Origin: Clostridia bacterium
GTDB taxonomy: Bacteria; Bacillota; Clostridia; Christensenellales; Borkfalkiaceae
Assembly: GCA_017626305.1 (NCBI GenBank)
Contig: JAGAIW010000028.1
Coordinates: 1-64,000 of the forward strand
Direction of reading: 5' to 3'
DNA: 64,000 bases
This document shows, piece after piece, positions 1,123 to 52,233 of this stretch. Made by a program: the position numbers and the translations under genes. A model generated the notes under the pieces. The model made no database searches. It was not told the origin of the DNA and worked only from the letters and a program-made list of their open reading frames with translations. Every line of letters begins with the position of its first letter. Positions within the stretch are counted from its first letter, which is position 1.

Positions 1123-1236
1123 TTATTTTATATGGTAAAGAAAAAAATGTTAAATTTTCTATTGGGATATATTAAATACATACCGAAAAAATTATGATAG
1201 AATAAGTGTAAGAATAAAATGGTATAGGTGTATGTT

Positions 1237-2415
1237 ATGCTCATTAAAAATGCATCGGTGATATTGAAAGACGAAATTATTCAAGCGGACGTTCTTGTTA
1301 AAGCAGGGAGAATTGCTCAAATCGGGAACGATTTGCAGGATAGCGAAGTTTTGGATTCGACAGGAAAATATCTTGCCCCTGGGTTTGTAGACATTCACAA
1401 CCACGGCGGGTACGGCTACGATTATATGGACAATACCGTAGAAGCATTTGAAAATATTTTGCGTTTCCACAGCGACAACGGGATTACTTCCGCGGTGGCA
1501 TCCACGGTAACTGCGCCCCAAGAAACGATAGAAAAAACCTTGTCGGTTGCTCGTGAAGTGCTTCCCAAGCGAGGCGACCATGCAAAACTTTTAGGGGTGC
1601 ACTTGGAAGGACCGTATCTTTCCTTCCAAAATAAAGGTGCGCACGCGCCCGCGTACTTAAAAGTTCCCGCAGAGGACGATTACGGATACATCTTGGAAAA
1701 TGCCGACGTTATCCGTCAAATCACGATTTCGCCCGAACTTGACGGCTGTGTAGAATTGACGGAAAAGCTTGTCGAAAAGGGTATTGTCGTATCTATGGGT
1801 CACGACAATGCGATTTTGCCAGAATTTTTACCCGTTGTAAAAGCGGGGGCAAGCAATCTCACCCACCTTTTCTGCGCGATGAGTATGGTAGTCATGAGAA
1901 ATAACAAACGTTACGTAGGGCTTCGCGAGTACGGTTTGATTGATGACAATTTGACCGCCGAGCTTATCGCGGACAATCATCATATCACGCCCGAACTTTT
2001 TAAGATGATTTATAGATGTAAGGGAGCAGATGGAATATGTTTGATTTCCGACTGTTTGCGTGCGGGCGGTATGAAAGCGGACGGAACGCTGTACAGCTTG
2101 GGGAAGAAAGACGACCCGACCTCACAGCAGTTTAAGGTGGCGGACGGCGTAGCCGTTTTGGCGGATGGTAAGACGTACGCAGGCAGTATTCAACCCATTT
2201 CACAGATGCTCCGCAACGTTGTATTCGACGGGGGCGTGCCTTTGGTGGAAGCTATCAAAACGGTCAGCTTAACCCCTGCGAAGATTGTAAAAGCGGATAA
2301 AGATATTGGGTCGATTGAAGTTGGAAAATACGCAGACTTCTGCGTTTTGAATAAAGAGTTAATGGTAGAACAAACGATTATCGAAGGTAGAATAATCCAA
2401 AAAACGGAGGTGTAA
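1237..2415 (+). CDS. nagA: N-acetylglucosamine-6-phosphate deacetylase-like amidohydrolase
   Basis: Cytoplasmic enzyme of 392 residues that should remove the acetyl group from an N-acetyl-amino-sugar 6-phosphate. Amidohydrolase landmarks appear in order: the HNHGG metal motif (His54, His56), HLEGPYLS with the metal-binding Glu (about 124), a GHDNA motif, THLFCAM (HLFNAM in typical NagA) and a late ISDC, where the catalytic Asp is kept. The ATG at 1237 follows AGGTG by 7 bases; an upstream GTG at 1228 lacks a ribosome site. First gene of a long operon and 2 bases from the NagB-like gene. The Cys in THLFCAM and the Cys after the catalytic Asp are slight departures, so the true substrate could be a related acetylated amino sugar. 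Confidence 0.85.
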   Translation: MLIKNASVILKDEIIQADVLVKAGRIAQIGNDLQDSEVLDSTGKYLAPGFVDIHNHGGYGYDYMDNTVEAFENILRFHSDNGITSAVASTVTAPQETIEKTLSVAREVLPKRGDHAKLLGVHLEGPYLSFQNKGAHAPAYLKVPAEDDYGYILENADVIRQITISPELDGCVELTEKLVEKGIVVSMGHDNAILPEFLPVVKAGASNLTHLFCAMSMVVMRNNKRYVGLREYGLIDDNLTAELIADNHHITPELFKMIYRCKGADGICLISDCLRAGGMKADGTLYSLGKKDDPTSQQFKVADGVAVLADGKTYAGSIQPISQMLRNVVFDGGVPLVEAIKTVSLTPAKIVKADKDIGSIEVGKYADFCVLNKELMVEQTIIEGRIIQKTEV

Positions 2416-2417
2416 TT

Positions 2418-3245
2418 ATGGTAAATACCTATTATTGTTCATCGGAAGAATTTGTAAAAAACAGCAAAATTCCTGTAAGAGTTATGCAAACCGAAGCGGA
2501 TATGATGGAAGAAATTGCAGAATTGATGGCGTCGGTGATTGAGAAAAATAATGCGAAGGGTGAAAAAACGGTTATTATTTGTCCCGTAGGTCCCATCGGG
2601 CAATATCCCATCTTTGCCCAGAAGGTAAATGAAAGAAATATTAGCCTTCAAAATTGTTGGTTTATCAATATGGACGAATATCTTGTCGGCGACGATGAGA
2701 CCATTCCTTATGAAAATCCGCTCAGCTTTAAGGCGACTATGGACAGAGTACTGTATTCACAGGTAAAAGAAGAACTTTTGATGCCTACATCACAGCGTTT
2801 GTTCCCCGAGCCCAAAAAGGAAGCGGAAATTGACGCGCTGTTTGAAAAGCTCGGCAAGGTGGATTTGTGTTTAACGGGGGTTGGTATCAATGGACATATC
2901 GCCTTTAATGAACCGCCAAAGGCCAACGACGTGATTACTGATGAAGAATACAAGAACTGTGGAACGAGATGCGCGGATATCGCTACGGAAACGGTGGTGA
3001 ATAATGGGGCAAACAAGCTTCGCGGCGCACTCGATATTTTCCCTAAAAGATGTATCACGTTGGGGATGAAGCAACTCTTAAAAGCAAGGGTATTAAAGGT
3101 ATATTTGTATTGCAACTGGCAATGGGGGATTATGCGTAAGATGGCACTTGAAGAAGAGTCTCGTTTCATGCCCGTATCCTTCTTACAATCGCATCCGAAT
3201 GCGGAAATGGTCATCACGCAGAGCTTGTATGATTTTAATTTATAA
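2418..3245 (+). CDS. nagB: Glucosamine-6-phosphate deaminase-like protein (NagB/RpiA fold)
   Basis: A 275-residue NagB-family protein expected to convert glucosamine-6-phosphate to fructose-6-phosphate and ammonia after NagA has acted. It keeps the NMDEY motif with the catalytic Asp and the signature GVGINGHIAFNEP with the active-site His and Glu. Asn replaces the Asp of the E. coli enzyme in that signature, as is common in Gram-positive NagB. It starts 2 bases after the nagA stop codon, which implies translational coupling. The C-terminal third (from about residue 205) is divergent from textbook NagB, so a related amino-sugar phosphate is possible. Confidence 0.85.
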   Translation: MVNTYYCSSEEFVKNSKIPVRVMQTEADMMEEIAELMASVIEKNNAKGEKTVIICPVGPIGQYPIFAQKVNERNISLQNCWFINMDEYLVGDDETIPYENPLSFKATMDRVLYSQVKEELLMPTSQRLFPEPKKEAEIDALFEKLGKVDLCLTGVGINGHIAFNEPPKANDVITDEEYKNCGTRCADIATETVVNNGANKLRGALDIFPKRCITLGMKQLLKARVLKVYLYCNWQWGIMRKMALEEESRFMPVSFLQSHPNAEMVITQSLYDFNL

Positions 3246-3259
3246 GTAAGGAGCAAGCT

Positions 3260-4087
3260 ATGAAGTTTGGAACGTTGGTACGACTTAAAAATGTAGACGA
3301 TTGCGTTGCGGCATTTGAAAAAGTAAAGGCGATGGATTTGGAAAGTTGCCAGTTGGTTTACAAACCTGCAACGTACACCCTTGAGAGTGCAAAAATCATC
3401 AAGGCGGCTGCAGAAAAATGCAGCATAGAAATATCGGCGTTTTTCGCTGGTTTTTACGATGATTATACTGCTTGGGAGCTCAAATACGATTTCCGTAATG
3501 CGGGGTTGAACAGCGTGGCTTTTGGCGCAGAACGTTTGAAGTATTTGCTTGGCGTATTGCCCTTTTTACAAGAGCTTGGCGTATCGGATATGATTATCCA
3601 CGCAGGGTTTGTTCCCAATGACCCATTCGCGCCCGAATATACGGAAATGATATGCAGGGTGAAACTACTTGCGGACAGAGCGAAAAAGTACGGGGTAAAT
3701 ATTTTGTTTGAAACGGGTGGGGAAAGTCCGATTACCTTGCTTCGTTTAATCCAAGAAGTAAACACAGGCAACCTGTTTGTCAACTTAGATACGGGTAATT
3801 TGATAATGTACGGCTACGGAAATCCCTGCGAAGCGGTGATGACTCTTGGTCAATATGTTCGCAACGTGCACGCAAAGGACGGCGTCCCCCCGACGGACCC
3901 TTATAAGATCGGTGAGGAAAAAGCACTTGGCGAGGGCGTGGTGGATTTCAAGAGAGTATTTACACTATTAAAAGAGCGTGGTTACGACCGCTTTATCACG
4001 ATTGAACGTGAAATTGAAGGCGAAGAACAAAAACGCGATATCGAGCGCGGATTCATCTATTTGAAAGAAATATTAAAAAACATATAA
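3260..4087 (+). CDS. Sugar phosphate isomerase/epimerase-like TIM barrel protein
   Basis: A 275-residue AP-endonuclease-2/xylose-isomerase-like barrel. The four expected metal ligands are in place: Glu151 (FETGGES), Asp177 (NLDTGN), His204 (NVHAKDG) and Glu249 (TIERE). Members include IolE and IolI, hexulose-phosphate epimerases, and the lyases that cleave 3-keto-glycosides. It sits between the NagB-like gene and three Gfo/Idh genes, a neighbourhood that recalls Gfo/Idh-plus-TIM-barrel oxidative deglycosylation modules. The function is inferred only from fold and context. Confidence 0.8.
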   Translation: MKFGTLVRLKNVDDCVAAFEKVKAMDLESCQLVYKPATYTLESAKIIKAAAEKCSIEISAFFAGFYDDYTAWELKYDFRNAGLNSVAFGAERLKYLLGVLPFLQELGVSDMIIHAGFVPNDPFAPEYTEMICRVKLLADRAKKYGVNILFETGGESPITLLRLIQEVNTGNLFVNLDTGNLIMYGYGNPCEAVMTLGQYVRNVHAKDGVPPTDPYKIGEEKALGEGVVDFKRVFTLLKERGYDRFITIEREIEGEEQKRDIERGFIYLKEILKNI

Positions 4088-4104: not shown

Positions 4105-5190
4105 ATGAAAAGAAAAGTAGGTATTATCGGTTATGGTTGGGTTGCAGGTGCGAATCACAAGAATTCCTATGCGCAGGCAAAGGACGTAGAAATTGTAGCG
4201 GTTTGCGACGTAAATAAAGCGGCATTGGAACGCGCAAAGAGAGATTACAATCTTCCTGACGAAGCATTGTTTGACGATTATAAAAAGCTCATCGACAGCG
4301 GGCTTTGCGATATGGTCGATATTTGTACGCCCAACAGCTTCCACTGTGAACAGGCGAAATATGCATTGAACGCAGGCTTGCCCGTAAGTATTGAAAAACC
4401 CGTTGGCGTAAACAGCCAAGAAGTAGAAGAAGTACGTGCTTTGGCGGAAGAAAAAGGCTTGCCCGTATTCATTTGCTTTACTTGGAGACATATGCCCACG
4501 ACGAGATTCTTGAAAGACGTAATTGACAGCGGTGCTGTCGGTAAAGTGTACCACTGCTATATCAAGTGCATCAAGGAAAGCGGGCTTTGGGAAGGCAGAC
4601 GTTTGGAATGGCGTTTTCGCAAGGAACTTGGCGGTACGGGCGTTCTTTGCGACCTTGGTTCGCACATGATCGACTTCTTGAACTGGATGAACGAGGATAT
4701 TGTCGGTTTGACCGCAAACATGGGTATATTCATCAAGGAAAGACAAAAGGTGGATTCCGACGAATGGGCACCCGTAACGACGGATGACTATGCAAACATT
4801 TTGGCGGATTTGAAGAGCGGTGCAACTGCAAATATCGAACTTTCCCGTTGTGCAAAGACGGAAGAACAGTTGGTTGAATTTATCATCTATGGCGAAAAGG
4901 GTTACATCCGTTTCTGCAACTACGTAGGCGAAGGTTTGGAAATTTGTTATGGAAGCAAGGAAGAAATAGCAAAGGGCAAGCAGCGTGTTGCTACACCTGA
5001 AAAGTACGGCGCAACTTGGTCCTTGTATCAATCTCAGTCTTTTATCGATTATGCAAATGGTAAAAAGGATAACTTCACCTCCACGATCGACGACGGTTTG
5101 CGCGCGCAGATGGTCATTGACGCGGTTATTAAATCGAGCGAAGAAAAACGCTACGTAACGATTGATGAAATTCAAAAAGGATTGAAATAA
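4105..5190 (+). CDS. Gfo/Idh/MocA family oxidoreductase (1)
   Basis: A 361-residue NAD(P)-dependent sugar dehydrogenase. The Rossmann motif GIIGYGWVAG is at residues 6-15, the EKP motif with catalytic Lys98 follows, and the second-domain Asp183 and His187 pair (DLGSHMID) is present. These residues support reversible oxidation of a sugar hydroxyl, classically C1 or C3 in glycosides or inositol. Its stop codon overlaps the start of the next Gfo/Idh gene (TAATG). It is one of three consecutive family members, which suggests successive or alternative redox steps on one substrate. Confidence 0.9.
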   Translation: MKRKVGIIGYGWVAGANHKNSYAQAKDVEIVAVCDVNKAALERAKRDYNLPDEALFDDYKKLIDSGLCDMVDICTPNSFHCEQAKYALNAGLPVSIEKPVGVNSQEVEEVRALAEEKGLPVFICFTWRHMPTTRFLKDVIDSGAVGKVYHCYIKCIKESGLWEGRRLEWRFRKELGGTGVLCDLGSHMIDFLNWMNEDIVGLTANMGIFIKERQKVDSDEWAPVTTDDYANILADLKSGATANIELSRCAKTEEQLVEFIIYGEKGYIRFCNYVGEGLEICYGSKEEIAKGKQRVATPEKYGATWSLYQSQSFIDYANGKKDNFTSTIDDGLRAQMVIDAVIKSSEEKRYVTIDEIQKGLK

Positions 5191-6251
5191 TGAAACATAA
5201 ACTTGGTATTATTGGGTACGGTACAATGGGTTCTTGGCACGCGGAAAACGTGCGCGATCGTATCGCGGGGTTAGACGTTGCCGTCGTGTACGACATAGAC
5301 CCGAAAAAGCGTGAAAAAGCAAGCGCGGACGGTTTTTGCGTTTACGATACCGCGGAAGATTTTTTCAAGACGGATATCGACCTCGTTTTGATTGCTACGC
5401 CGAATAATTTCCATAAAGATTACAGCGTTATGGCAATGGAAAAGGGGAAAAACGTCGTCTGCGAAAAACCCGCTTGTATGAGCGTGAAAGAATTAGAGGA
5501 GGTTTTGGCGGTCAGTAAAAAGACCGGCAAGCTTTATACCATCCACCAAAATCGGCGTTTTGACGTGGACTACGTAATCGCAAAGAAAATTGTCGAAGAA
5601 GGAAAAATCGGCAAACTCTTTATGTTAGAATCGAGATTGTATTCTAATCGCGGCTTTTCCAAGGGCGGTTGGAAAGCAAAATACGAAACGGGCGGCGGAC
5701 TTTTATACGATTGGGGTATTCATTTGCTTGACCAAATTATGTGCATGATTCCCGAAAATCCCGTCAGCGTTTTTGCAGAACTGCATAAGGTTTATATGCA
5801 GGAAGTAGACGATGTTTGTTGCGTAACGATTACCTTTGAAAGCGGTTTAACGGCTCGTTTTTTGTGCGACCTTTGGTGCCATATCAAAGAGGCGAGATGG
5901 CACATTCAAGGGGATAAAGGTACGGCGGTTATTAACGACTGGTTCGGTCAAGAGGGTAAAATGCTGCAAACGACGGACGTGGGTGTGGAAGAAAGTGTAG
6001 GCTGTATTTATACCTATAACGGACTTTCTACGAGTATGTATTCCCGTCCTATTCAGGAGCTGAACGAATTGCCTTTGCCCTTGCCTGCCGTTTATCCGCG
6101 CTGGGAAGAATTTTACGAAAACGTCATAAACGTAATCGAAGGAAGGGCGGATCAGATTATCACGCACGAACAAATTCTTAAAGATATGAAAGTTTTGATG
6201 GCGGCGTTTGAATCCGCGAGGACACAAACGGTCGTAAAGCTTTCCCTTTAA
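5190..6251 (+). CDS. Gfo/Idh/MocA family oxidoreductase (2)
   Basis: A 353-residue homologue of the preceding gene. It has GIIGYGTMGSWH near the N-terminus, CEKP with Lys93, and a WGIHLLD motif with Asp174 and His178. The active-site set is complete. The gene overlaps the previous stop codon by one base. It is divergent enough from gene 1 to have its own substrate or to run the reverse step of an oxidise-cleave-reduce sequence. Confidence 0.9.
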   Translation: MKHKLGIIGYGTMGSWHAENVRDRIAGLDVAVVYDIDPKKREKASADGFCVYDTAEDFFKTDIDLVLIATPNNFHKDYSVMAMEKGKNVVCEKPACMSVKELEEVLAVSKKTGKLYTIHQNRRFDVDYVIAKKIVEEGKIGKLFMLESRLYSNRGFSKGGWKAKYETGGGLLYDWGIHLLDQIMCMIPENPVSVFAELHKVYMQEVDDVCCVTITFESGLTARFLCDLWCHIKEARWHIQGDKGTAVINDWFGQEGKMLQTTDVGVEESVGCIYTYNGLSTSMYSRPIQELNELPLPLPAVYPRWEEFYENVINVIEGRADQIITHEQILKDMKVLMAAFESARTQTVVKLSL

Positions 6252-6266
6252 AAGGAGAAAATTGTT

Positions 6267-7118
6267 ATGAAAAAAATAGGAATTGTAGATTATTTTATCG
6301 ACGAATGGCATTCCAACACCTATTTAGGGCTTTTTGAAAGAGCAAGCAAAGAGCTTGGGCTTGATTATAAAGTCGTATATGGGTATGCAGAAGTGGAAAA
6401 AGAGGGAAAATTGAGCACGGACGAATGGTGCAAAAAGAATAATATTATCCGTTGTAACACGATTGAGGAGCTTTGTGAAAAAAGCGACAATATTTTAATT
6501 CTCGCGCCCGCAAACCCTGAAACGCATTTAAGATACGCAGAAGCGGCTTTGAAGTACGGTAAAACCACATATATCGATAAGACGTTTGCGCCTGATTTAG
6601 AAACAGCGAAAGCCATTTTTGCGGTGGCGGAAAAGTACAATACGAAGATTTTTACCTCGTCAGCCTTACGATATGCGGAAGAAATCGCGGACTATACCGA
6701 CGTTAAAAACGTCATGATTAAAGGCAGCGGCCGCAGTTTGGAAGAATATATCATTCACCAAATCGAAATGGCGGTGAAACTGACGAAAGGCGAGCAGGCA
6801 AAGCTTGCGCACGTTTTCAGCGGTGATAAGCAATCGACAATCGTGTTGGAATATGCAGGCAGAACGGTAACCCTTAGTTATTCCAACAGCGGTTGTGGAT
6901 TCTCTGTGGACGTGGAAACGGATAAGGCGAATTGTGAATATAAAAACGTGGAAAAGGGTACCGAATTCTATCGCTTGGTAGAAAGTATCGTGAAATTCTT
7001 TGAAACGAACGAAGAACCCTTTGACAAGAAAGAAACGTTGGCAGTTCTTGCTATTCGCGACGCCATTATGAAAGGTATTAGCAACGGTGAGAAAACGGTT
7101 CCCGTGGAAAACTATTGA
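6267..7118 (+). CDS. Short Gfo/Idh/MocA-like protein (3)
   Basis: A 283-residue protein, about 70 shorter than its neighbours. The family's Lys is kept (DKTF, Lys105) and the strand order of the first domain is recognisable, for example around PANPETHLRYAEAAL. The N-terminal GxGxxG loop is replaced by GIVDYFIDEW, and no second-domain Asp/His pair is obvious. It may therefore not bind NAD(P) in the normal way and could be an accessory subunit. AAGGAG lies 9-10 bases before the ATG. Confidence 0.7.
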   Translation: MKKIGIVDYFIDEWHSNTYLGLFERASKELGLDYKVVYGYAEVEKEGKLSTDEWCKKNNIIRCNTIEELCEKSDNILILAPANPETHLRYAEAALKYGKTTYIDKTFAPDLETAKAIFAVAEKYNTKIFTSSALRYAEEIADYTDVKNVMIKGSGRSLEEYIIHQIEMAVKLTKGEQAKLAHVFSGDKQSTIVLEYAGRTVTLSYSNSGCGFSVDVETDKANCEYKNVEKGTEFYRLVESIVKFFETNEEPFDKKETLAVLAIRDAIMKGISNGEKTVPVENY

Positions 7119-7158
7119 TGATAAAACAAGATTTGAAAGATATTATGGAGGCTTAGCT

Positions 7159-8583
7159 GTGAACGAGTTTTTATTTACGCAAATTTTGACCGAGCTGGAA
7201 GATGCGGTAGGCAGAGAAAATTGTTCGGTAAAAGAAATTGATAAGGTTACGCATAGTGCAGACTTTTTCTGGCTTTCGAGAATGTGGGTAGACCGCGGTG
7301 TAAGAATGCCCGAAGCGGATTTCATCGTTGCGCCCAAGGACGCGCAGGAAACGTCGAAGGTGCTGAAAATAGCAAATTATTACAAAATCCCCGTGACGAC
7401 TTGGGGGGGCGGCGCAGGCTCGCAGGGCGGCGCGCTTCCCGTTTGCGGCGGTATTATACTTGACACCAAGCGCATGAATAAGATTTACGAAGTCAATACG
7501 GAAAGTATGTACATAGAATGCGGTACGGGTGCGATTTATAAGCATATCGAATGGGCAGCGAATGAAAAGGGGTATGCGACAATGCATTATCCCTCGTCAT
7601 TGACCTGCTCGACGGTGGGCGGTTTCTTGGCGCACCGCGGTATTGGTGTTGTTTCCAATAAGTACGGTAAAATTGACGATATGGTATTACAGATGGAGGT
7701 CGTTCTTCCCAACGGCGATATCATCAATACGTCCGCTACGCCCAAGCATGCGGCAGGGCCTGACTTGAACCAAATTTTCATCGGTTCGGAAGGTACGCTT
7801 GGTATCATCACCAAGGCACAAATCCGTATCTACGAACAACCCGAAGTTAGACGTTTCAGAGGGTTCTTGTTCAAGGATATGACCTCTGCGTTTAAGGCAA
7901 GTAAAGAAGTTTTGCAGAAATTCAAACCTTCCGTTATGCGTCTTTACGACGATGCAGAAACGGCAAGCTTGATTAAGAAAATCGTCGGCGTTGCTAAGCC
8001 TGGTGCTTTTATGAATATTGCTTATGAGGGCGTAAAAGAGTTGGTGGACGTGGAAGAAAAGATTTTATTGGAAACGTTTGCAAAATATGGTGCGGAAGAT
8101 TTGGGCAGTGAATACGGTGAAAAGTGGTGGAATGAAAAGATTACATTCTTCTATCCTGGGCACATGATGGACATTCCTCAAATGTTCGGTACGATGGATA
8201 CGATTGCACCTTACGATAAAATCGAAAAGATTTACTGGGCAATGAAAAATGCCATCGAAACGAAATATCCGTATGCGAAATTCATCGCGCACTTCTCGCA
8301 TTGGTACGAATGGGGCTGTATGATGTACGACCGCTTCATCATCGACGGCGAACACGTACCTCAAGACCCTGTGGAAGCTATGCGTTTGCACAATGAAATT
8401 TGGACGCTTGGTATCCGTACAGCGCTTGAAAACGGCGGTGTAGTCAACGATCACCACGGTGTGGGCATCAAGCTTGGCAGAATGATGAAAGAGCAGTACG
8501 GTCCTGCAATGCAGGTATTTGAAGGAATTAAAAAATTCCTTGACCCGAACGGTATCATGAACCCGTTCAAACTTGGTTTGTAA
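7159..8583 (+). CDS. FAD-binding oxidoreductase, GlcD/alkyl-DHAP synthase-like (VAO family)
   Basis: A 474-residue flavoprotein of the vanillyl-alcohol oxidase fold. The PP-loop region reads TTWGGGAGSQGG, followed by a GFLAHRGIGV segment and GSEGTLGIIT. The C-terminal end carries DHHGVG and then the FLDPNGIMNPFK motif shared by GlcD-type 2-hydroxyacid dehydrogenases and alkyl-DHAP synthases. I chose the GTG at 7159 because GGAGG lies 7 bases upstream; an ATG at 7087 would overlap the previous gene without a ribosome site. With the adjacent Fe-S protein and the downstream Etf fusion it resembles Etf-dependent dehydrogenases. The substrate is probably a sugar-derived hydroxy acid (inference). 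Confidence 0.85.
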   Translation: MNEFLFTQILTELEDAVGRENCSVKEIDKVTHSADFFWLSRMWVDRGVRMPEADFIVAPKDAQETSKVLKIANYYKIPVTTWGGGAGSQGGALPVCGGIILDTKRMNKIYEVNTESMYIECGTGAIYKHIEWAANEKGYATMHYPSSLTCSTVGGFLAHRGIGVVSNKYGKIDDMVLQMEVVLPNGDIINTSATPKHAAGPDLNQIFIGSEGTLGIITKAQIRIYEQPEVRRFRGFLFKDMTSAFKASKEVLQKFKPSVMRLYDDAETASLIKKIVGVAKPGAFMNIAYEGVKELVDVEEKILLETFAKYGAEDLGSEYGEKWWNEKITFFYPGHMMDIPQMFGTMDTIAPYDKIEKIYWAMKNAIETKYPYAKFIAHFSHWYEWGCMMYDRFIIDGEHVPQDPVEAMRLHNEIWTLGIRTALENGGVVNDHHGVGIKLGRMMKEQYGPAMQVFEGIKKFLDPNGIMNPFKLGL

Positions 8584-8597
8584 TAGGGAGAAACGAT

Positions 8598-9674
8598 ATG
8601 AATATCACGGAAAAATCAAAAAATATAATCGATAATTGCAGATTCTGTTGGATGTGCCGTCACGTATGTCCAATCGGGAATGCGACGGGGTTGGAAAGAA
8701 ACACCGCCCGCGCCCGCGCAATGGGCGCAAGCTTGGTTGTGCGTAATGCCACTGAGCTCAAAGAAATCGCAGAAAACATCTACGAATGTACCCTTTGCGG
8801 TGCGTGTACGAACAACTGCATGACGGGCTTTGACCCTAAGGTGTTTATCCAAGAATTAAAGACGGGAATCGTGTTAAACGGCGTTGCGCCCACGTATATT
8901 ATGGACTTGCTTGAAAAATATACGACGATGGGCAACGTGTTTGGCAAGACGGCTTGCGCGGGCTTAGATGATTTGTACAACACGGACAGTGAAACGGCGT
9001 TGTTCGTTGGCCAGGATGCATTGTACAAATCCCCCGAAAGTGTAAAGAATGCAGTTGTGCTTTTGAACAAGGCAGGCGTAAGCGTGTCCTTGGATAAAAA
9101 CCAAGACAGCGGCGCCGCGCTTTGGTTCTTGACGGGTAAAACGCAGGAAACGCAAAACGCGGCAAAGGCTTGCGCGGAAATGCTCAATCAATATAAGACT
9201 GTTATAGTATACGATCCCGTTGACTTGAAGTTGATGCTTCACGAATATAAGGAATGGGGCATTGAAGTCACGGCGAAAGTGGTTGGGTTTAATGAATATC
9301 TGCTTGCCTTGATTGAAAATGGTAAGCTTGCAGTGAAGAAGACGGCAAACGAGTATACTTTACAGGATAATTACGCGTACGCAAGAGAACTCGACGACAG
9401 CGAAACGGGCAGAAAACTCATTGAAAAAGTAGGCGTGAATAAGGAAATGCTTCTCATCGGTAAGGAAGCAAACCTTGCAGGTCAGTTGATTATGGCGGAA
9501 TATATGCCCGACGTCATCGTGCAGGTTGCGAAAGATAGATGGCAAAATGCAATCAATATGGATTGCAAAACGATGGTTACCGAAAATCCTGCGGAATATG
9601 TTGCGCTCAAAGCAACAGCTCCCGACGGTTATCGTGTGATTTCCGTAGAAGAAATGCTTTTGGAGAATATGTAA
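8598..9674 (+). CDS. 2x[4Fe-4S] ferredoxin-domain protein, GlcF/HdrC-like
   Basis: A 358-residue iron-sulfur protein with two CxxCxxCxxxC motifs (Cys14, 17, 20, 24 and Cys64, 67, 70, 74). They should hold two [4Fe-4S] clusters that pass electrons between the FAD subunit encoded 14 bases upstream and a carrier. GlcF proteins normally carry Cys-Cys-Gly domains after the ferredoxin part. Here the C-terminal 250 residues keep the length of that region but I see no CCG motif, so the domain is degenerate or different. A pair of soluble dehydrogenase subunits is the likely arrangement. Confidence 0.85.
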   Translation: MNITEKSKNIIDNCRFCWMCRHVCPIGNATGLERNTARARAMGASLVVRNATELKEIAENIYECTLCGACTNNCMTGFDPKVFIQELKTGIVLNGVAPTYIMDLLEKYTTMGNVFGKTACAGLDDLYNTDSETALFVGQDALYKSPESVKNAVVLLNKAGVSVSLDKNQDSGAALWFLTGKTQETQNAAKACAEMLNQYKTVIVYDPVDLKLMLHEYKEWGIEVTAKVVGFNEYLLALIENGKLAVKKTANEYTLQDNYAYARELDDSETGRKLIEKVGVNKEMLLIGKEANLAGQLIMAEYMPDVIVQVAKDRWQNAINMDCKTMVTENPAEYVALKATAPDGYRVISVEEMLLENM

Positions 9675-9675
9675 T

Positions 9676-10467
9676 ATGAACTTGAAAAAATCCTACGTTG
9701 AAAAATACGGTTATGAAAGAGTAGTAACGGACAGAAACTCCCCGCTCGTATACGCGGAAACGGATATGTTGAAGCTTGCGGATGGTCAAAGCTACACGAT
9801 TGACGAACTTGGAAAAGAATTCGTTTTGGTGGTTTTATACGGGAGATGTGAGGTAAAGGGCGAAGGATTTACCTTTGCTGTGGGAAAACGCGTTAACGTT
9901 TTTGAAGGTGCGGCGGAAACGGCATACGTTGGTAAGGACACGGCTTTTACCGTTACGGCAATGGGCGGCGACGTGAAAATTGCCGTATGCAAAGCGCCCG
10001 CGGAAAAATATTACAAACCTTATCAAATCAAGGCTGAAAACGTTGTGGTGAAAACGTTTGGTAAGGGCGCGTTCGTGCGCGAAGTCGCTTTCACTTTCCC
10101 TGAAAGCGGGGAGGCAAACCATTTGTACATCGGTGAGTTTTGGGTAGAAGACGGCAAATGGGGTAGTTATCCTCCACATAAGCACGACGTGGACAATCTT
10201 CCTACGGAGGGGGCGCTCGATGAAATTTACTACTATGAATTCGACAAACCCCAAGGGTTTGGTTTCCAAGCGGTGTACACCCCTGAAAACGACATCAACG
10301 AAGTATACAAAGTGCAAAATGGGGATATGGTGGTTATCCCTAAAGGCTACCACCCTTTCACGGTTGCACCAGGTTATAAAAACTATTGCTTATGGATTAT
10401 GGCAGGGAAAAACCGCGGGCTGTTGAGTTCGTCGGAAGAATGCCATAAGTGGATTGTGAAAAACTAA
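9676..10467 (+). CDS. 5-deoxy-glucuronate isomerase-like protein (IolB family)
   Basis: A 263-residue bicupin related to IolB and KduI. The C-terminal cupin shows PPHKHD, a following Glu with EIYYY, and the VVIPKGYHP strand, which supply the metal-binding His/His/Glu/His set. IolB isomerises 5-deoxy-glucuronate to 2-deoxy-5-keto-gluconate in inositol catabolism. The operon also has IolC-like (PfkB) and IolJ-like (class II aldolase) genes but no IolD, so it may act on another uronate-like intermediate. It follows the Fe-S gene by one base. Confidence 0.8.
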   Translation: MNLKKSYVEKYGYERVVTDRNSPLVYAETDMLKLADGQSYTIDELGKEFVLVVLYGRCEVKGEGFTFAVGKRVNVFEGAAETAYVGKDTAFTVTAMGGDVKIAVCKAPAEKYYKPYQIKAENVVVKTFGKGAFVREVAFTFPESGEANHLYIGEFWVEDGKWGSYPPHKHDVDNLPTEGALDEIYYYEFDKPQGFGFQAVYTPENDINEVYKVQNGDMVVIPKGYHPFTVAPGYKNYCLWIMAGKNRGLLSSSEECHKWIVKN

Positions 10468-10479
10468 AAGGAGTATACC

Positions 10480-11940
10480 ATGTACGTACTTGGCATAGAT
10501 TTCGGCGGGGGTGCAAGCAAAGCGACGCTGTTAGATAAAAACGGTCAGGTGGTTGCTACGGCAACCGCCGAATACCCCACGCATTACGGTGACGGCGGAA
10601 AAGCGGAACAAAATCCGATGGATTGGTACAATGCTGCTTGTCAAAATATCCGTTCCGTTTTACAAAATATAAATGCCGAGGACGTAAAATGTCTTTGTTT
10701 TGACGCGGCAACACATACGGCGGTTTTAATGGACGAGAACGGCGTTCCCATTTGTAATTCCGTCTATTGGACGGACACACGAAGTGTAAAAGAAAAGCAA
10801 TACCTTGCAGAGAATTTCGGCAAGGAAATTTTCGAAAAATGTAAGCATAACGTCGATACCATTTGGTCTTTACCCGAAATTTTGTACGTAAAGAATCATT
10901 TTCCCGACGTTTATAAAAAGGTGAAAAAGGTTACGTTTGCCAAGGATTTTGTGCGCGGAAAATTCACAGGCGACTTCGTCACCGACTATATCGAGGCGCA
11001 GGGCAGCATGCTCTTTGACTTTGATAAAAAGGAATGGGATGAACGTCTTTTGAGCCTTGTTGGGCTGACAAAAGAATCTATGCCCAAAATTGTAAATCCG
11101 CTTGAACGGGTGGGGCAGGTACGCGATGAAGCAGCTTTGGATACTGGATTAAAGGTGGGAACGCCCGTGGTTTGCGGGGCGACGGATACTGTCATGGAAG
11201 TGTTTGCGGCAGGCGGAATTAAGAATGGTGATATGACCTTGAAACTCGCGACGGCAGGCCGTATTTGCGTGGTTTCAAACGAATATTACCCAGATAAAAA
11301 TATCATCAACTATTCTCATCTTAAAGAGAAAATGTATTATCCTGGAAGCGGAACAAAATCCTGCGCGGCGTCTTTGCGTTGGTTTAGGGATACTTTCGGC
11401 GGCAGCTTTGAAGTGTTCAGTGAGATTGCGGAAGATATTCCCATTGGATGTGATGGGCTTGTGTTTCATCCCTACTTAACAGGTGAACTTACGCCGTACG
11501 CAAATCCCATGCTTCGGGGCAGTTTTATCGGGATTTCCGCAGGGCATACCAAAGCGCATTTTGCACGCGCCGTAATGGAAGGCGTAGCGATGAGTTTGCT
11601 TGACTGCAAGACGTACTTAAAAGAAAAAGGCGTTCAGGTGGGTAATTCGGCGTATGTCATCGGTGGAGGCGCAAAGAGTAAGGTTTGGCGACAAATTGTA
11701 GCTGATGCCTTAGGATTGACGCTTGTACAAACGGAAAATAACGATTCTTCGTTTGGCTCGGCGATGTGTGCAGGTATATCGGCAGGATTCTTTGCGAGTT
11801 TTGACGAGGCGAGCAAGACCTGTCAAAAAGTGATAGGCGAAACAAAGCCTATTCCCGAAAATACTGAAAAATACGCAAAAATCTTTGCGAAATACAAAAA
11901 AATCAGCAAATTTTTAACGGAACTTTCCGATGAAAGATAA
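10480..11940 (+). CDS. FGGY family carbohydrate kinase (xylulokinase-like)
   Basis: A 486-residue two-domain sugar kinase. The N-terminal phosphate-1 loop reads GIDFGGGASKATLLD, the central part has a WTDTRS motif, and the C-terminal ATP-binding part has YVIGGGAKSKVWRQ, typical of FGGY kinases. Most similar in style to xylulokinases, but specificity in this family cannot be read from motifs. It would phosphorylate the sugar or ketose produced by the upstream isomerase. AAGGAG lies 8-9 bases upstream. Its 3' end overlaps the start of the Etf fusion by 11 bases. Confidence 0.88.
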   Translation: MYVLGIDFGGGASKATLLDKNGQVVATATAEYPTHYGDGGKAEQNPMDWYNAACQNIRSVLQNINAEDVKCLCFDAATHTAVLMDENGVPICNSVYWTDTRSVKEKQYLAENFGKEIFEKCKHNVDTIWSLPEILYVKNHFPDVYKKVKKVTFAKDFVRGKFTGDFVTDYIEAQGSMLFDFDKKEWDERLLSLVGLTKESMPKIVNPLERVGQVRDEAALDTGLKVGTPVVCGATDTVMEVFAAGGIKNGDMTLKLATAGRICVVSNEYYPDKNIINYSHLKEKMYYPGSGTKSCAASLRWFRDTFGGSFEVFSEIAEDIPIGCDGLVFHPYLTGELTPYANPMLRGSFIGISAGHTKAHFARAVMEGVAMSLLDCKTYLKEKGVQVGNSAYVIGGGAKSKVWRQIVADALGLTLVQTENNDSSFGSAMCAGISAGFFASFDEASKTCQKVIGETKPIPENTEKYAKIFAKYKKISKFLTELSDER

Positions 11941-13315
11941 AAGAATAGTCGTATTATTAAAATATTTCAAAGGGGAATTGAATCCATTTGACGGGGCTGC
12001 GTTAGAGTGTGCTTTGGAAACGGGCGCAAAGGAGATAATTGCACTGTCTATGGCGCCCATGTCCGCGTTGAATTCTTTTCAAGGCGTTACCCGCATAGGG
12101 GTTAAAGGGATATTCATTAGCGATCCCTTATATGCAGGTAGCGACACGCAAGCGACAAGTTTTATCCTTGCGGAAGCGTTGAGACGATTAAAACCCGACT
12201 TGATTTTTAGCGGACGGCAAAGCGTGGATGGGGATACGGCGCAGGTGCCGCCGATGATCGCGCAACGCTTGGGTTTTGCTGTGAAAACGAAAGCCATCAG
12301 TTTTGTCAGTGATACTATCACTTTGCGAAACGGAGAGAACTTCGTTCCGCAGGAAAAAACGGTGATTACATTTGAAAAGATTCGTACTCTCCGTTTCCCG
12401 TCTATTTTTTCAAAGCTTGGCGAAGTGGAAATTTGGAACAACGGAATTTTGGGTTTGCCGCAAGAAAAATGTGGATTGAAAGGCTCGCCCACACGCGTGG
12501 TGAAGAGCTATGAAAGCAGCGTAGGGCGTAGGCAATGCCAATTTGTCGGTATGGAAACGCTGGATTCGCTTATCCAAGCTGGGTTGAAAAAACAACGCAC
12601 AGAGCAAACCGAAGACAAAGGACAAAAACTTGACGAAATCTATTTTGTCGGTAATATAAAGCCGATAGCGGAACGCATTGGCTTTACCGCGATAGAGTTG
12701 CAAACGCAAGGAAAAAGTGCAAAGGAAATTGCCGAAGAACTGACGGAAAAGCAAGCGAAAGCGGTACTTTGGGAAGACAGTGAAGAATTGAAAATTTTGG
12801 CTTCGCAGGTAGCCGTTTTGACGGGGGCAGGTATTTGTGCAGACTGTATTTCTTTCCGTGTGGAAGAGGGAAAACTGATAATGACTCGTCCCGCTTTGGG
12901 TGGTAACGTTACGGCGGATATCGTCTGTGAGAGTGATATGACATTCGCTACGGTGCGGACAGTGAAGAAAGAGAGCTCGGACGTAATTTTTTCCGTTGGG
13001 AAAGGCGCAACGGACGAGATAGAAAGGATACGAAAGCTTGCGCAAAAATATGGTGCAGAGGTTTGTTGTTCGCGCATTGTGGCGGACGGCGGAAAACTGC
13101 CGTATGAAAAACAAGTGGGCTTGACGGGCAGAACAGTATCCCCGAAAGTCTATGTGGCTTTTGGAATTTCGGGCGCGGTACAGCACACCTGCGCGATTGC
13201 AGGTGCGGGCACGGTGATAGCCGTAAACAATGATAAACAAGCAAGGATATTCGATTATGCTGATTACGGTATAATGGATGACGTAAAAAATATAAAGGAG
13301 AATGAAATATGTTAG
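11930..13315 (+). CDS. Fused electron transfer flavoprotein EtfB-EtfA
   Basis: A single 461-residue chain joins both subunits of an electron transfer flavoprotein. Residues about 1-205 are the EtfB part, with the LIFSGRQSVDGDTAQVPP segment that binds the AMP/FAD side. Residues about 215-461 are the EtfA part, ending in the FAD signature (GLTGRTVSPKVY, GISGAVQH, ADYGIMDD). ETF carries electrons between flavoprotein dehydrogenases and another acceptor. Encoded with a GlcD-like and an Fe-S protein, it suggests an Etf-linked, possibly confurcating, dehydrogenase complex. A fusion in the order B then A is uncommon; the usual form is two genes. It overlaps the neighbouring genes on both sides. Confidence 0.88.
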   Translation: MKDKRIVVLLKYFKGELNPFDGAALECALETGAKEIIALSMAPMSALNSFQGVTRIGVKGIFISDPLYAGSDTQATSFILAEALRRLKPDLIFSGRQSVDGDTAQVPPMIAQRLGFAVKTKAISFVSDTITLRNGENFVPQEKTVITFEKIRTLRFPSIFSKLGEVEIWNNGILGLPQEKCGLKGSPTRVVKSYESSVGRRQCQFVGMETLDSLIQAGLKKQRTEQTEDKGQKLDEIYFVGNIKPIAERIGFTAIELQTQGKSAKEIAEELTEKQAKAVLWEDSEELKILASQVAVLTGAGICADCISFRVEEGKLIMTRPALGGNVTADIVCESDMTFATVRTVKKESSDVIFSVGKGATDEIERIRKLAQKYGAEVCCSRIVADGGKLPYEKQVGLTGRTVSPKVYVAFGISGAVQHTCAIAGAGTVIAVNNDKQARIFDYADYGIMDDVKNIKENEIC

Positions 13316-14136
13316 TAAATTTTCAAACGATTTTGAAAGATGCAGATGAAAAGGGGTATGCAGTACCTGCTTTTAACGTGTATAATATGGAAACGGTCAT
13401 GGGGGTTATTCAAGCGGCGGAAGAACAGCGCGCGCCCGTGATTATTCAATTCTATTCCCGTTTGGCAACGACGGGTTTTGTGGATTATCTTGCGCCCATC
13501 ATTTTGAAAGCGGCGGAAAAGGCAAGCGTACCCGTATGTATTCACCTTGATCACGGTGCGGGTTTTGAACCTGCGGCGATTGCGCTCAAAAACGGTGCTA
13601 CGGGGATTATGGTGGACTTTTCGAAACTTGACATGGATGAAAATATTGCCAACACGAAAAAGGCGGTGGACATTTTGTCTGTGATGAATATCGGCGTAGA
13701 AGGGGAAATCGGTCATATCGGTTCTGCTGCAGACGGCGTACCTACCGATTATACGACGGTAGAAGAAGCGAAAAAATACGTAGACGGTACGGGCGTAGCG
13801 GCATTGGCGGTTGCGGTCGGTACGGCGCATGGCAGATACAAGCAGGCACCCGTTCTTCAAATCGAACGTATCAAAGCGATCAAAGACGAGGTGAAAATTC
13901 CCCTTGTACTCCACGGCGGCAGCGGTGTTCCCGACGACCAAATCAAGTTAGCGGTTCAGGCGGGTATCCGTAAAATCAATTTTGGTACGGACCTTTGCTA
14001 TTCTTTCTTAGACAGTGTATTTGCGGTAGATAGAAAAATTTACGCAATCGACTTGTTCATGAAAGAACCGATTGCAGCGGTGAAGAGCTTCGCGGTTTCC
14101 AAAATTCAACTTCTTGGGGCGAATGACAGAGTATGA
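13309..14136 (+). CDS. Class II fructose-bisphosphate aldolase family protein (IolJ/GatY-like)
   Basis: A 275-residue zinc aldolase. Ligands and substrate motifs appear as HLDHG (His82), EGEIG (Glu134), GTAHG and LHGGSG. It should split a ketose phosphate into dihydroxyacetone phosphate and an aldehyde. The IolJ and GatY/KbaY enzymes of this family use 2-deoxy-5-keto-gluconate-6-phosphate and tagatose-bisphosphate. The start overlaps the end of the Etf fusion by 7 bases, and the stop overlaps the next gene (ATGA), which ties it tightly into the operon. Confidence 0.88.
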   Translation: MLVNFQTILKDADEKGYAVPAFNVYNMETVMGVIQAAEEQRAPVIIQFYSRLATTGFVDYLAPIILKAAEKASVPVCIHLDHGAGFEPAAIALKNGATGIMVDFSKLDMDENIANTKKAVDILSVMNIGVEGEIGHIGSAADGVPTDYTTVEEAKKYVDGTGVAALAVAVGTAHGRYKQAPVLQIERIKAIKDEVKIPLVLHGGSGVPDDQIKLAVQAGIRKINFGTDLCYSFLDSVFAVDRKIYAIDLFMKEPIAAVKSFAVSKIQLLGANDRV

Positions 14137-15017
14137 AAAAGGTCGTAGGGCTTGGCGCGTGCGTATTGGATACGCTTATCGCTTGCGAGAGCTATCCTAA
14201 GGAAGATACCAAACAAAAAGCAGAAAACATTTTTCTCTCGGGCGGCGGTCCCGTTGGCAACGCGCTTGTGGTCATCAGTAAGCTTGGGGTAAAAGCCGAT
14301 GTCATCGGCGGTTTTGGCGGTGACAGTGCGGGAAAGTATCTGTTGGACGATTTCAAAAAATACGGCGTAGGTGTGGAAAATGCGACGGTCTTAAAAGATG
14401 CAACGTCCTTTACCTCGTATATCGTTTTGGCGGCGGACAAAGCAAGTCGTACCTGCGTATTCGATAGAGGTAGCGTATTGGACGAGCCGAGCAATTTACA
14501 GCTCTCCGCCATCGATGATGCAGACGTCTTGCATTTGGACGGGAATTATTTAGAGAGTGCGATTGCGGCGGCGAAATACGCCAAGGGAAAAGGTGTAAAA
14601 GTGAGTTTGGACGCAGGCGGTTTATATGCGGGCATCGAACGGCTTTTACCATACGTGGATATCCTGATTTCCTCGGCGGAATTTGCGCTTGGTCTGACGC
14701 AGGAAACGGAAATTGCGGCAGCCATGTCCGCGTTGAATGCAAAATACGCGCCCCAAATTTTGGTGGTGACGGACGGCAGCAACGGCGGGTATTATTGGGA
14801 AAACGGCACGGCTGTACACTATGACAGTGTAAAGGTCAAGGCGGTGGATACCAACGGTGCAGGGGATACTTTCCACGGCGCGTTTATCGCGGCATATTGC
14901 GAGGGGAAGAACGTGAAAGATTGTTGCGTATACGCAAGCAAAGTCGCCGCTTACAAGTGTATGCATACAGGGGCAAGAACTTACGAGTTAAGTAAGGAAA
15001 TTGCGGATAAATTATAA
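14133..15017 (+). CDS. PfkB family carbohydrate kinase (ribokinase fold)
   Basis: A 294-residue kinase with the two PfkB signatures: a Gly-rich GGGPVGNALVV near residue 40 and the anion-hole motif DTNGAGDTFHGAF near residue 245, whose Asp is the catalytic base. It could phosphorylate a ketose or a deoxy-keto-gluconate before aldol cleavage by the preceding gene, with which it shares an ATGA overlap. The substrate is uncertain: ribokinase, fructokinase, KDG kinase and IolC all share these motifs. Confidence 0.88.
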   Translation: MKKVVGLGACVLDTLIACESYPKEDTKQKAENIFLSGGGPVGNALVVISKLGVKADVIGGFGGDSAGKYLLDDFKKYGVGVENATVLKDATSFTSYIVLAADKASRTCVFDRGSVLDEPSNLQLSAIDDADVLHLDGNYLESAIAAAKYAKGKGVKVSLDAGGLYAGIERLLPYVDILISSAEFALGLTQETEIAAAMSALNAKYAPQILVVTDGSNGGYYWENGTAVHYDSVKVKAVDTNGAGDTFHGAFIAAYCEGKNVKDCCVYASKVAAYKCMHTGARTYELSKEIADKL

Positions 15018-25815: not shown

Positions 25816-25854
25816 TCCGTTTCGTCTGTAAGAATGTCTTGCAGGCGGGGCGGA
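25816..25854 (+). terminator. Intercistronic hairpin after the binding-protein gene
   Basis: TCCG (25816) to CGGA (25854) forms a long stem with a small loop around AATGT. The T-rich stretch follows only after about 8 bases, so it looks like a 3'-end stabiliser or partial terminator that lets the binding protein be made in excess of downstream products. Confidence 0.55.
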
Positions 25855-25893
25855 TGTTGTGGTTTTTTATTATCGAATGGAGAAATAACAATA

Positions 25894-45332: not shown

Positions 45333-46097
45333 ATGGATAGATATAATTTATTAAAAACGAAATTTGACAAAAAAGAAAAAATTGTCGGTACGACGATGAC
45401 GATGATTGGCAGTTCGCTCATTTTGGAAAAAATGGCAGGCAGAGAGGATATCGATTATATATTGTTTGACACTGAACACGGTATTTTCGACGCGCAAAAT
45501 CTAGTGCCGCTGCTTCAAACGATGCGCCTTTTGAAAATTCCTTCCCTTGTAAGAGTGCAAGACGCCGAATATCATTTGGTCGCAAAGCTTATTGATATGG
45601 GTGCGGACGGTATTATGATTCCTCGAACGGAAACGTTGCAGCAACTTCGCACCGCTATTGACGGTTTGCTTTTCGCTCCCGACGGAAGAAAAGGTATGGG
45701 CGGTTGCGGTCAGTTCAGACCGGGCGAAAAGTTCACGGATTTCAAAAACACTCGATTTTTACTGCCTCAAATCGAATCGCCCGAAGGTATCAAAAACCTG
45801 CCTGCAATGTTAGAAACGTACGGCGAATATATCAGTGCGGTCATCATCGGGCCGTACGATATGTCAGTTATGGTAGGCACGCCTGCCAATATCGGCAGTG
45901 AGACTATGGACAAAGCGGTGCAAGAAGTATTTGACATCTGTAAAAAATACAACAAATCTTGCGGTATCTTCTGCGACAATGAAATTTTAGCGAAAAAATA
46001 CCGTGATATGGGTGCCAACGTTTTATGGATGGCGGTTGACAGAGATTATTACATGCGTGGTTTGAACGCTATGTTGGACGGTGTGAAAGAATTATAA
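45333..46097 (+). CDS. HpaI/HpcH-type class II aldolase (2-keto-3-deoxy sugar acid aldolase)
   Basis: A 254-residue TIM-barrel aldolase. FDTEHGIFD holds the active-site His, IMIPRTE and PQIESPEG carry the metal-binding Glu, and IGPYDMS the metal-binding Asp. The family cleaves 4-hydroxy-2-oxo acids, including 2-keto-3-deoxy-rhamnonate and -galactonate types, to pyruvate and an aldehyde. Its place next to a 2-hydroxyacid dehydrogenase and an aldo/keto reductase, and near the rhamnose genes, fits a sugar-acid route. The exact substrate is unknown. Confidence 0.85.
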   Translation: MDRYNLLKTKFDKKEKIVGTTMTMIGSSLILEKMAGREDIDYILFDTEHGIFDAQNLVPLLQTMRLLKIPSLVRVQDAEYHLVAKLIDMGADGIMIPRTETLQQLRTAIDGLLFAPDGRKGMGGCGQFRPGEKFTDFKNTRFLLPQIESPEGIKNLPAMLETYGEYISAVIIGPYDMSVMVGTPANIGSETMDKAVQEVFDICKKYNKSCGIFCDNEILAKKYRDMGANVLWMAVDRDYYMRGLNAMLDGVKEL

Positions 46098-46113
46098 GAG
46101 GACGGTAGAAAGG

Positions 46114-47070: not shown

Positions 47071-47125
47071 TGTTTAGCCTTTAGAAAATATAAAAAGCGG
47101 ATATTGAAATTACGGGAGAGTATTT

Positions 47126-48776: not shown

Positions 48777-49472
48777 TCAAAAGTTTTCCGTAATAACAAG
48801 GTCAAAATCTTGTAAATCGGCTAATTTATGAGTGGCTTTTGCCGCAAATTTTGAAGAGTCTGCAAGCAGGATTCTTTTTTTACTGCGTTGGATTGCCGCT
48901 AATTTTATTTCCCGTTGTTCAAGGGAGCGTTCGTAAACTTCTTCGTCGATAATCGCCGTGCAGGAAAGTATCATTAAATCAAAAGAAAATTCTTTTATTT
49001 GTCGTACCGTCCAACTACCGGTTGTGGATATTGCCCCGTATCCGATATTTCCGCCAACGAAAATTAAGTGCACGTTTTGCTTTTTCGTTAATTGTAGCGC
49101 GGTTTGCAAGTTGTTTGTGACAACGGTTTTAAAGCTTAAATCCATTCTTTCCGCAAGGGCGAGCGCGGTGGAAGAACTATCGATAAAAATGCTGTCAAAG
49201 GGCGGAATTACGTCTAACGCTTTCGTCGCAATCTTTTGTTTTAGCTTGGCGTTTTTTACCATTCGTATATAAATGGAAACTTCGTTCGTATTATTAGGCA
49301 GAATAGCGCCGCCATGGCTACGTTCCACTAACCCCAAAGAGTGCAGCTCTCTCAAATCACGCCGAATGGTTGCTTCGCTTGCATACAACGCTTTTGCAAG
49401 AGATTTGACGTTTGCGCTGTGTTCTTTTTTTAGAATTTCTATAATTTTCGATTGTCGTTCGGTTAAAACCAT
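48777..49472 (-). CDS. DeoR/GlpR family transcriptional regulator of rhamnose genes
   Basis: A 231-residue repressor-type regulator. Residues 1-57 form the DeoR winged helix (LTERQSKIIEIL, then EATIRRDLRELHSLGLVERSHGGA). The rest is the sugar-phosphate-sensing DeoRC domain, with a VTNNLQTALQL stretch and an FVGGNIGYGA loop. It is divergent from rhaBAD, the same layout as the B. subtilis RhaR type, so it should respond to a rhamnose-pathway phosphate intermediate. Candidate operator half-sites lie in the shared intergenic region. Confidence 0.88.
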   Translation of the reverse strand: MVLTERQSKIIEILKKEHSANVKSLAKALYASEATIRRDLRELHSLGLVERSHGGAILPNNTNEVSIYIRMVKNAKLKQKIATKALDVIPPFDSIFIDSSSTALALAERMDLSFKTVVTNNLQTALQLTKKQNVHLIFVGGNIGYGAISTTGSWTVRQIKEFSFDLMILSCTAIIDEEVYERSLEQREIKLAAIQRSKKRILLADSSKFAAKATHKLADLQDFDLVITENF

Positions 49473-52229: not shown

Positions 52230-52233
52230 ACGC

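Follow-up and report, generated by a model that had tools for sequence, protein, structure and literature searches.

Closest described systems

Among the closest described systems to the locus reported here is the lactate dehydrogenase complex Ldh-EtfAB (LctBCD) of Acetobacterium woodii (PDB 7qh2). Our locus lies on contig JAGAIW010000028.1 of a Clostridia bacterium (assembly GCA_017626305.1), and "the window" means the 64,000 nucleotides of this contig that were analyzed. Three redox proteins are encoded on the forward strand. They are GlcD, a subunit of a flavin adenine dinucleotide (FAD) dehydrogenase; FeS, an iron-sulfur protein; and EtfBA, an electron-transfer flavoprotein (Etf) with EtfB and EtfA in a single chain. 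According to PMC9232219, our source for all the Ldh-EtfAB residues below, the two systems share a GlcD-fold dehydrogenase and an Etf with the b-FAD motif, the SPT anchor and the Arg that contacts N5. However, the Etf of this locus is one chain without the ferredoxin domain of EtfA, and a separate 2x[4Fe-4S] protein is present. The metal triad of the dehydrogenase is not complete, and sugar kinases, an isomerase and an aldolase stand alongside.

In FixABCX (Etf-FixCX), too, a flavoprotein dehydrogenase and an iron-sulfur protein work with an Etf. FixC belongs to another flavoprotein family than GlcD, FixX is a small ferredoxin, and we know of no sugar gene context for this system. FixX mediates between Etf and FixC (PMC9232219). 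The GlpABC, GlcDEF and LdhH-type systems, whose iron-sulfur subunits are of the CCG kind, share with our cluster the FAD subunit and the dicluster iron-sulfur subunit. In contrast, clusters bearing EtfBA have lost the CCG cysteine motifs and gained an Etf. The nearest solved relative of GlcD is alkyl-dihydroxyacetonephosphate (alkyl-DHAP) synthase (PDB 2uuu, 4bby). Common to both are an HHG motif and an Arg aligned with R419 of the synthase, presumably a residue of note. Alkyl-DHAP synthase is redox-neutral and makes ether lipids; to our knowledge it has no electron-transfer partner.

Two sugar pathways resemble the neighboring genes. Many of our clusters contain a PF02952-like isomerase, DUF4867 or aldose 1-epimerase, a PfkB kinase and a class II aldolase, as do sulfo-EMP2 and related sulfoglycolytic clusters (PMC9594981, PMC11968277). 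Nevertheless, our clusters add the redox genes, IolB and an FGGY kinase to these. The isomerase scores 76.8 against a sulfoquinovose isomerase cut-off of 700 (one protein scanned), and sulfoquinovose was rejected as the substrate. On the other hand, IolB, PfkB and the aldolase resemble the lower half of the myo-inositol pathway (IolB-IolC-IolJ). IolB exceeds its cut-off, and PfkB and the aldolase are adjacent in many loci. However, none of the 13 carriers searched has IolD above cut-off (seven give weaker matches), so the inositol pathway as a whole was also rejected. Among openly licensed papers we found no description of the cluster, of a fused Etf of this kind or of these site residues. The gene set is conserved in uncultured gut bacteria and apparently undescribed.

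Proposed function of GlcD, FeS and EtfBA

Our reading of these sequences, which we consider somewhat better supported than not, is that GlcD, FeS and EtfBA form a dedicated Etf-coupled dehydrogenase. Its substrate would be an intermediate in a conserved sugar pathway of the aldolase type. GlcD would oxidize a sugar-derived alcohol, taking up two electrons at its FAD and doing without the metal triad known from D-lactate dehydrogenases. EtfBA would accept them at a-FAD and couple them through b-FAD to nicotinamide adenine dinucleotide (NAD+) and ferredoxin. FeS, as a 2x[4Fe-4S] protein of its own, may stand in for the ferredoxin domain of LctC-type EtfA, or relay electrons from GlcD to the Etf. 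The IolB-like isomerase, the PfkB and FGGY kinases and the class II aldolase would then convert the product into a ketose phosphate and split this into an aldehyde and dihydroxyacetone phosphate (DHAP). Exit through the Etf appears to have supplanted an older one through cysteine-rich CCG domains, retained by two relatives without EtfBA.

A fuller version can be put forward only tentatively. The system might be an undescribed electron-coupling flavoenzyme for sugar catabolism, where a bifurcating-type one-chain Etf, used by this pathway only, replaced the CCG exit. FeS would have lost the CCG cysteines and kept the fold as a ferredoxin arm or docking part. GlcD, with a cross-family conservation above that of RpoB, would act on a sugar or sugar phosphate, not on a hydroxy acid, at an alkyl-DHAP-synthase-like site. 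In either version the sugar is probably oxidized by an unusual energy-coupled route. If so, Etf-based coupling in gut Clostridia is not confined to lactate and acyl-CoA chemistry but extends to central steps of sugar catabolism.

Conservation across genomes

We sampled the class in one draw of 391 genomes from 223 genera. GlcD occurs in 27 genomes (22 of the 223 genera), EtfBA in 25 and both in 23. By chance, 1.7 genomes with both would be expected; since the genomes share ancestry, the significance of the excess is overstated. Four genomes have GlcD only. Three of them present GlcD or the cluster reaching a contig end, and the fourth (G628) has a GlcD 55% identical to ours and split Etfs. Two more, G467 and G605, have EtfBA only. 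It lies beside FGGY in the same cluster, and both contigs stop short of the expected GlcD; near it, the G467 contig also holds NagB, NagA and IolB.

We read 42 loci. GlcD and FeS are adjacent on the same strand in all 40 that hold both, and together with the co-occurrence in 23 genomes this bears out the idea, raised in a preliminary description of this DNA, that the three redox genes are kept together elsewhere. The sugar context that it described recurs too, with IolB in 36 loci and FGGY in 35, the remainder being cut by contig ends. EtfBA is present in 31. In L087, it lies just past the stretch first read. Four genomes (loci L086, L092, L101 and L103) carry it beside FGGY on another contig, with a contig end in or near the cluster. 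The contigs of L081, L084 and L105 end within the cluster, and no EtfBA is found in what remains.

As the set recurs in many genomes, it is not a product of chance. The order of the genes is less uniform: the aldolase and kinase follow EtfBA in the family of the window and precede IolB in other families. The gene set is conserved, its arrangement is not frozen, and it is not always one locus. Two genomes, G067 (L045, L047) and G158 (L039, L051), have two different copies of the cluster each. An opposite-strand open reading frame (ORF) that seemed to split the cluster in L034 was spurious, and IolB was found there.

A search for the fused Etf in 251 genomes of the family matched 23. In 14, the match runs along the fused protein; in nine, EtfA and EtfB match only separately. 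We read three of these nine (G045, G078 and G244). Their long open frames looked like a second full-length fusion, but on reading they are separate EtfB and EtfA genes.

Active site and constraint of GlcD

GlcD (7159..8583, forward strand; 474 aa) is a VAO/PCMH-fold FAD dehydrogenase subunit with a predicted alkyl-DHAP-synthase-like active site. It matches PF01565 (121.8 bits) and PF02913 (72.8 bits), and TIGR00387 at 202 bits, below the cut-off of 567.9. The start was set at 7159, where the orthologs begin to align; an earlier GTG at 7087 overlaps the preceding gene. Among solved structures, the top match is alkyl-DHAP synthase 2uuu, and the D-lactate dehydrogenase entries rank after it.

The metal ligands of the Ldh-EtfAB dehydrogenase are His377, His384 and Glu422 (PMC9232219). 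We transferred the LctD site positions by motif and spacing, through LctD-like proteins of two genomes of the same class. These two proteins have H, H and E as ligands. All 35 GlcD homologs present H, M and H: His377 is kept (H381 in the window), His384 is replaced with Met (M388) and Glu422 with His (H432). The base His423 (H433 in the window) is likewise conserved in 35 of 35. Arg328 has become Lys and Glu344 Thr in every homolog. R261, which aligns with R419 of alkyl-DHAP synthase, is present in all of them, and the two LctD-like proteins have Glu there. Both substitutions at the metal ligands, Met and His, also occur in the distant GlcD proteins of loci L151 and L152, which have Arg at the Arg328 position.

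With two of the three metal ligands replaced throughout, a plain metal-assisted oxidation of a hydroxy acid by GlcD is doubtful. The preliminary description had proposed a hydroxy acid as the substrate class, and these residues, with the structural ranking, do not support it. An enzyme of the Ldh-EtfAB kind, that is, a D-2-hydroxy-acid dehydrogenase acting on a sugar-derived acid such as an aldonate or D-lactate, seems unlikely, although some observations agree with it. GlcD belongs to the right family and keeps the equivalents of His423 and His377. An acidic substrate would also agree with two genes of the distant cluster L152, for an iron-type alcohol dehydrogenase and for a TRAP transporter. 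TRAP transporters mostly import organic acids, and the substrate of IolB in inositol catabolism is an acid. Against these stand the invariant changes at His384, Glu422, Glu344 and Arg328 (the last not shared by L151 and L152), the R261 lacking in LctD-like proteins, and the closer match to alkyl-DHAP synthase.

GlcD is also under strong constraint. Between the family of the window and eight genomes of other families, its identity is 85.1% (82-87, 24 pairs), compared with 60.5% for RpoB. The neighbors show lower values: FeS 48.0%, EtfBA 44.4%, IolB 48.3%, FGGY 54.6%, aldolase 57.8% and PfkB 45.4%. At short range there is no gap, with GlcD 88% and RpoB 87% identical in G020, of the same genus as the window. 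In G065, of the same family, the values are 90% and 71%. Recent transfer was considered as a cause and ruled out. Fourfold-degenerate sites are near saturation in GlcD (34.8% identical, 25.2 expected), about as in RpoB (35.5 and 27.6), which argues for selection on the protein. Two LctBCD-like sets that we compared (LctD-like 58%, LctC-like 51%, LctB-like 55%) have no such contrast within the set. A catabolic enzyme better conserved across families than RpoB calls for explanation.

The fused Etf

EtfBA (11930..13315, forward strand) consists of 461 aa with the EtfB part N-terminal. It matches PF01012 in two stretches and PF00766. It is far shorter than the sum of a 262-aa EtfB and a 402-aa EtfA. 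Even so, the AlphaFold2 model is confident almost throughout (mean predicted local distance difference test, pLDDT, 91.6). Residues 221-230, with a mean of 67, are likely the linker. The closest solved structures are 5ol2 and 6fah, then 4kpu; the first two are classed as Etfs of bifurcating complexes (PMC9232219).

The same source names the b-FAD motif DGDTAQVGP, the NAD motif RxFxG, the SPT anchor and the N5-contacting Arg of EtfA. The b-FAD motif of the window is DGDTAQVPP. Its first seven positions are kept in nearly all of the 31 fusions aligned (D 30, G 31, D 30, T 31, A 26, Q 30, V 29), and the eighth is Pro in 16 and Gly in 15. The SPT anchor is well preserved (S 31, P 29, T 31), and the N5-contacting Arg is found in 29, with Lys in two. 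So the fusion retains residues of both FAD sites, including the bifurcating-type b-FAD. The NAD motif conserves F or Y and G in 31 of 31. However, its Arg is gone in 30 fusions and present in one, which leaves NAD+ uncertain as the partner of EtfBA.

This loss speaks for a different view, in which EtfBA would be a plain non-bifurcating carrier passing GlcD electrons to another dehydrogenase. An Etf of that type is linked to D-lactate dehydrogenase in Fusobacterium nucleatum, according to PMC12630350. We find this improbable, given the b-FAD motif, SPT anchor and N5 Arg of nearly all fusions. Besides, no acyl-CoA dehydrogenase appears among the families of neighboring genes listed, which for one tally are 25 of 159.

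A family search of the 461-aa chain found no ferredoxin domain. Among the proteins compared, the two LctC-like ones are stand-alone EtfA chains whose N-terminus is longer and partly Cys-rich. In 12 of 13 carriers examined, the fusion is the sole Etf above cut-off, which suggests that EtfBA serves the GlcD pathway. One of these carriers, G311, has an LctBCD-like set in addition, and in G260 one further Etf match falls below the cut-off. If EtfBA does bifurcate, its single chain would lend itself to studies of bifurcation in a compact system.

The iron-sulfur protein and the electron exit

FeS (8598..9674, forward strand; Fer4_8, 39 bits) has an N-terminal 2x[4Fe-4S] domain with eight cysteines in two CxxCxxCxxxC motifs. 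Each position is Cys in 35 or 36 of the 36 proteins aligned, and the single gap is one protein without its N-terminus. The predicted structure has a pLDDT of 95.0. The C-terminal domain aligns with CCG domains without their cysteine motifs. Two to seven scattered cysteines remain, none of them conserved in the alignment, and the family search gave no CCG match in the FeS of the window. FeS matches the GlpC and LdhH models weakly. The relatives in L151 and L152 match them more strongly, and none is above cut-off.

These two relatives come from a GlcD search of 398 genomes of the phylum, which found three carriers: the genome of the window and two outside the class. In L151, GlcD is 71% identical and FeS has one CCG domain. 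No EtfBA follows this cluster in the stretch read, and one split Etf pair lies elsewhere in the genome. In L152, GlcD is 57% identical and the CCG match reaches 96.8 bits in two stretches; the iron-sulfur gene is partly masked, with its N-terminal half incompletely readable. No Etf was matched in the L152 genome, which is 97% complete. That CCG domains occur where EtfBA is absent and are lost in the Etf-bearing clusters suggests that an Etf exit took the place of an older CCG-domain exit. Set beside the CCG-using relatives, the clusters offer a natural experiment in which the same dehydrogenase has switched its route for electrons. The outlier L104 (from G628, with GlcD 55% and FeS 25% identical) adjoins an RpiR regulator. 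On its short contig FeS has no CCG cysteine motifs and EtfBA was not found, and the genome has two split Etf pairs.

The iron-sulfur genes also bear on a last alternative, a reductive or redox-neutral, alkyl-DHAP-synthase-like complex in which NADH would drive the reduction of a sugar intermediate and of ferredoxin: the site closest to alkyl-DHAP synthase, its conserved R419-aligned Arg, HHG in place of EHG and the bifurcating-type Etf sites agree with it, but it is quite improbable, as FeS adjoins GlcD in all 40 loci holding both and would be superfluous for a redox-neutral enzyme, and the CCG relatives resemble the electron-exporting GlpC, GlcF and LdhH systems, though below model cut-offs.

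Host energetics and points against the proposed function

All 13 carriers searched have an [FeFe] hydrogenase, and ferredoxin is therefore expected to turn over in them. A membrane protein of the RnfD/NqrB/RnfE family, taken as a sign of Rnf, occurs in eight of them. With this patchy distribution, the fate of ferredoxin differs between hosts.

Several observations weigh against the Etf-coupled dehydrogenase proposed above. Five of the 13 carriers, including the genome of the window, gave no RnfD/NqrB-family protein. In the window, Pro takes the place of Gly within the b-FAD motif of the fusion, and the loss of the NAD-motif Arg was described before. The CCG contrast comes from just two outside loci. 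In L091 the redox genes, IolB and FGGY are present, and the aldolase and PfkB were not found in the stretch read. Finally, in two genomes of one genus (L082 in G608, L083 in G523), EtfBA lies apart from FGGY and GlcD, adjoining an AraC-type or an unassigned gene. The linkage of EtfBA to GlcD is therefore not strict. In the preliminary description the fusion would favor a fixed stoichiometry, a tentative point in view of these two genomes. Altogether, the earlier interpretation is partly supported.

The separate EtfBA of G608 and G523 (L160, L161) is near a fucose-isomerase-like relative, 25% identical, on the opposite strand.

Sugar-pathway genes and candidate substrates

The following genes are all on the forward strand. 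Between FeS and EtfBA lie an IolB/KduI-family isomerase (9676..10467; TIGR04378, 235.4 bits, cut-off 205) and an FGGY sugar kinase. The kinase is xylulokinase-like (10480..11940; TIGR01312, 375.6 bits, slightly below the cut-off of 380.25; PDB 2itm). The HKH, E and H residues of IolB are invariant in 20 of 20 aligned proteins. Downstream of EtfBA there is a class II (FBA-type) ketose-phosphate aldolase (13309..14136; PF01116; PDB 8q58, 8q57, 6ofu) and a PfkB-family kinase (14133..15017; PF00294). The best structural match of the latter is 7ag6, a sulfofructose kinase. Family matches thus confirm what the preliminary description read from the sequence alone: genes for a VAO-fold FAD protein, for an iron-sulfur protein of the 2x[4Fe-4S] type and for EtfB and EtfA in one chain, beside kinase, isomerase and aldolase genes. 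As PfkB is nearest to sulfofructose kinase and the aldolase to ketose-phosphate aldolases among solved structures, they suggest that a ketose phosphate is split into DHAP and an aldehyde.

Upstream, the cluster extends with a NagA-like deacetylase (1228..2415; TIGR00221, 268.2 bits, cut-off 225.65) and a divergent NagB-like deaminase/isomerase. The second (2418..3245) gives 72.7 bits with TIGR00502, below the cut-off of 236.9. Then come a xylose-isomerase-like TIM barrel protein (3260..4087; PF01261) and three Gfo/Idh/MocA oxidoreductases. Two of these (4105..5190 and 5190..6251) match PF01408 and PF22725, and the third (6267..7118) is a weak match (PF01408, 23.6 bits, slightly below the cut-off of 24). 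Homologs of the first adjoin GlcD in L088 and L151. The gene run of L151 is NagA, Gfo, NagB, TIM, GlcD, FeS, aldolase, PfkB, IolB and FGGY, with NagB 61% and TIM 56% identical to ours and NagA also adjoining GlcD. Because L151 repeats them, the upstream genes of the window belong to a wider cluster theme. Other families likewise have clusters with a NagA or NagB homolog inside or next to them.

From 4105 to 15017, neighboring genes overlap or sit 1 to 40 bp apart, so the redox and sugar genes are likely co-transcribed. A promoter and terminator scan gave about the same number of sites as in shuffled sequences.

Frequent extras are a fucose-isomerase-like protein (24 matches in 42 loci) and DUF4867 or aldose 1-epimerase. 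DUF4867 was proposed to act on sugar ring forms, with no activity found (PMC11968277). A possible tagatose/galactosamine route fits the NagA, NagB, GH2 and GH123-like genes of the neighborhood, but explains neither the redox genes nor IolB. A Pfam tally of 117 of the 172 eligible neighboring ORFs gave no common substrate clue among the 25 of 159 families listed.

Other observations in the window and related loci

The host genome has 2.55 Mb in 189 contigs, and the window is part of one contig. Close relatives are four contigs of metagenome-assembled genomes labelled Clostridia or Clostridiales, two of them sampled from sheep colon and yak rectum.

A GH123 N-terminal domain (32.5 bits) on a 913-aa protein (25834-28575), beside an ABC-type sugar transporter, hints at N-acetylgalactosamine glycans. 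L082 (16977-18311) and L080 (14331-15731) have M20-type peptidase genes within or next to the cluster, whose products possibly deacylate an amino sugar. A protein of about 671 aa is encoded between IolB and DUF4867 in L038 (5904-7919) and L050 (6199-8217), and the L038 copy has no Pfam or NCBIfam match.

Further along the window, the genes at 49615-53055 have what we take to be the look of a rhamnose operon, with an FGGY kinase (rhamnulokinase-like), a sugar isomerase and an aldolase. On the opposite strand to them, at 48777-49472, is presumably a DeoR-type regulator, named from its translation. The genes at 45333-48124 look by eye like an HpaI-type aldolase, a D-2-hydroxyacid dehydrogenase and an aldo-keto reductase, a possible sugar-acid route.

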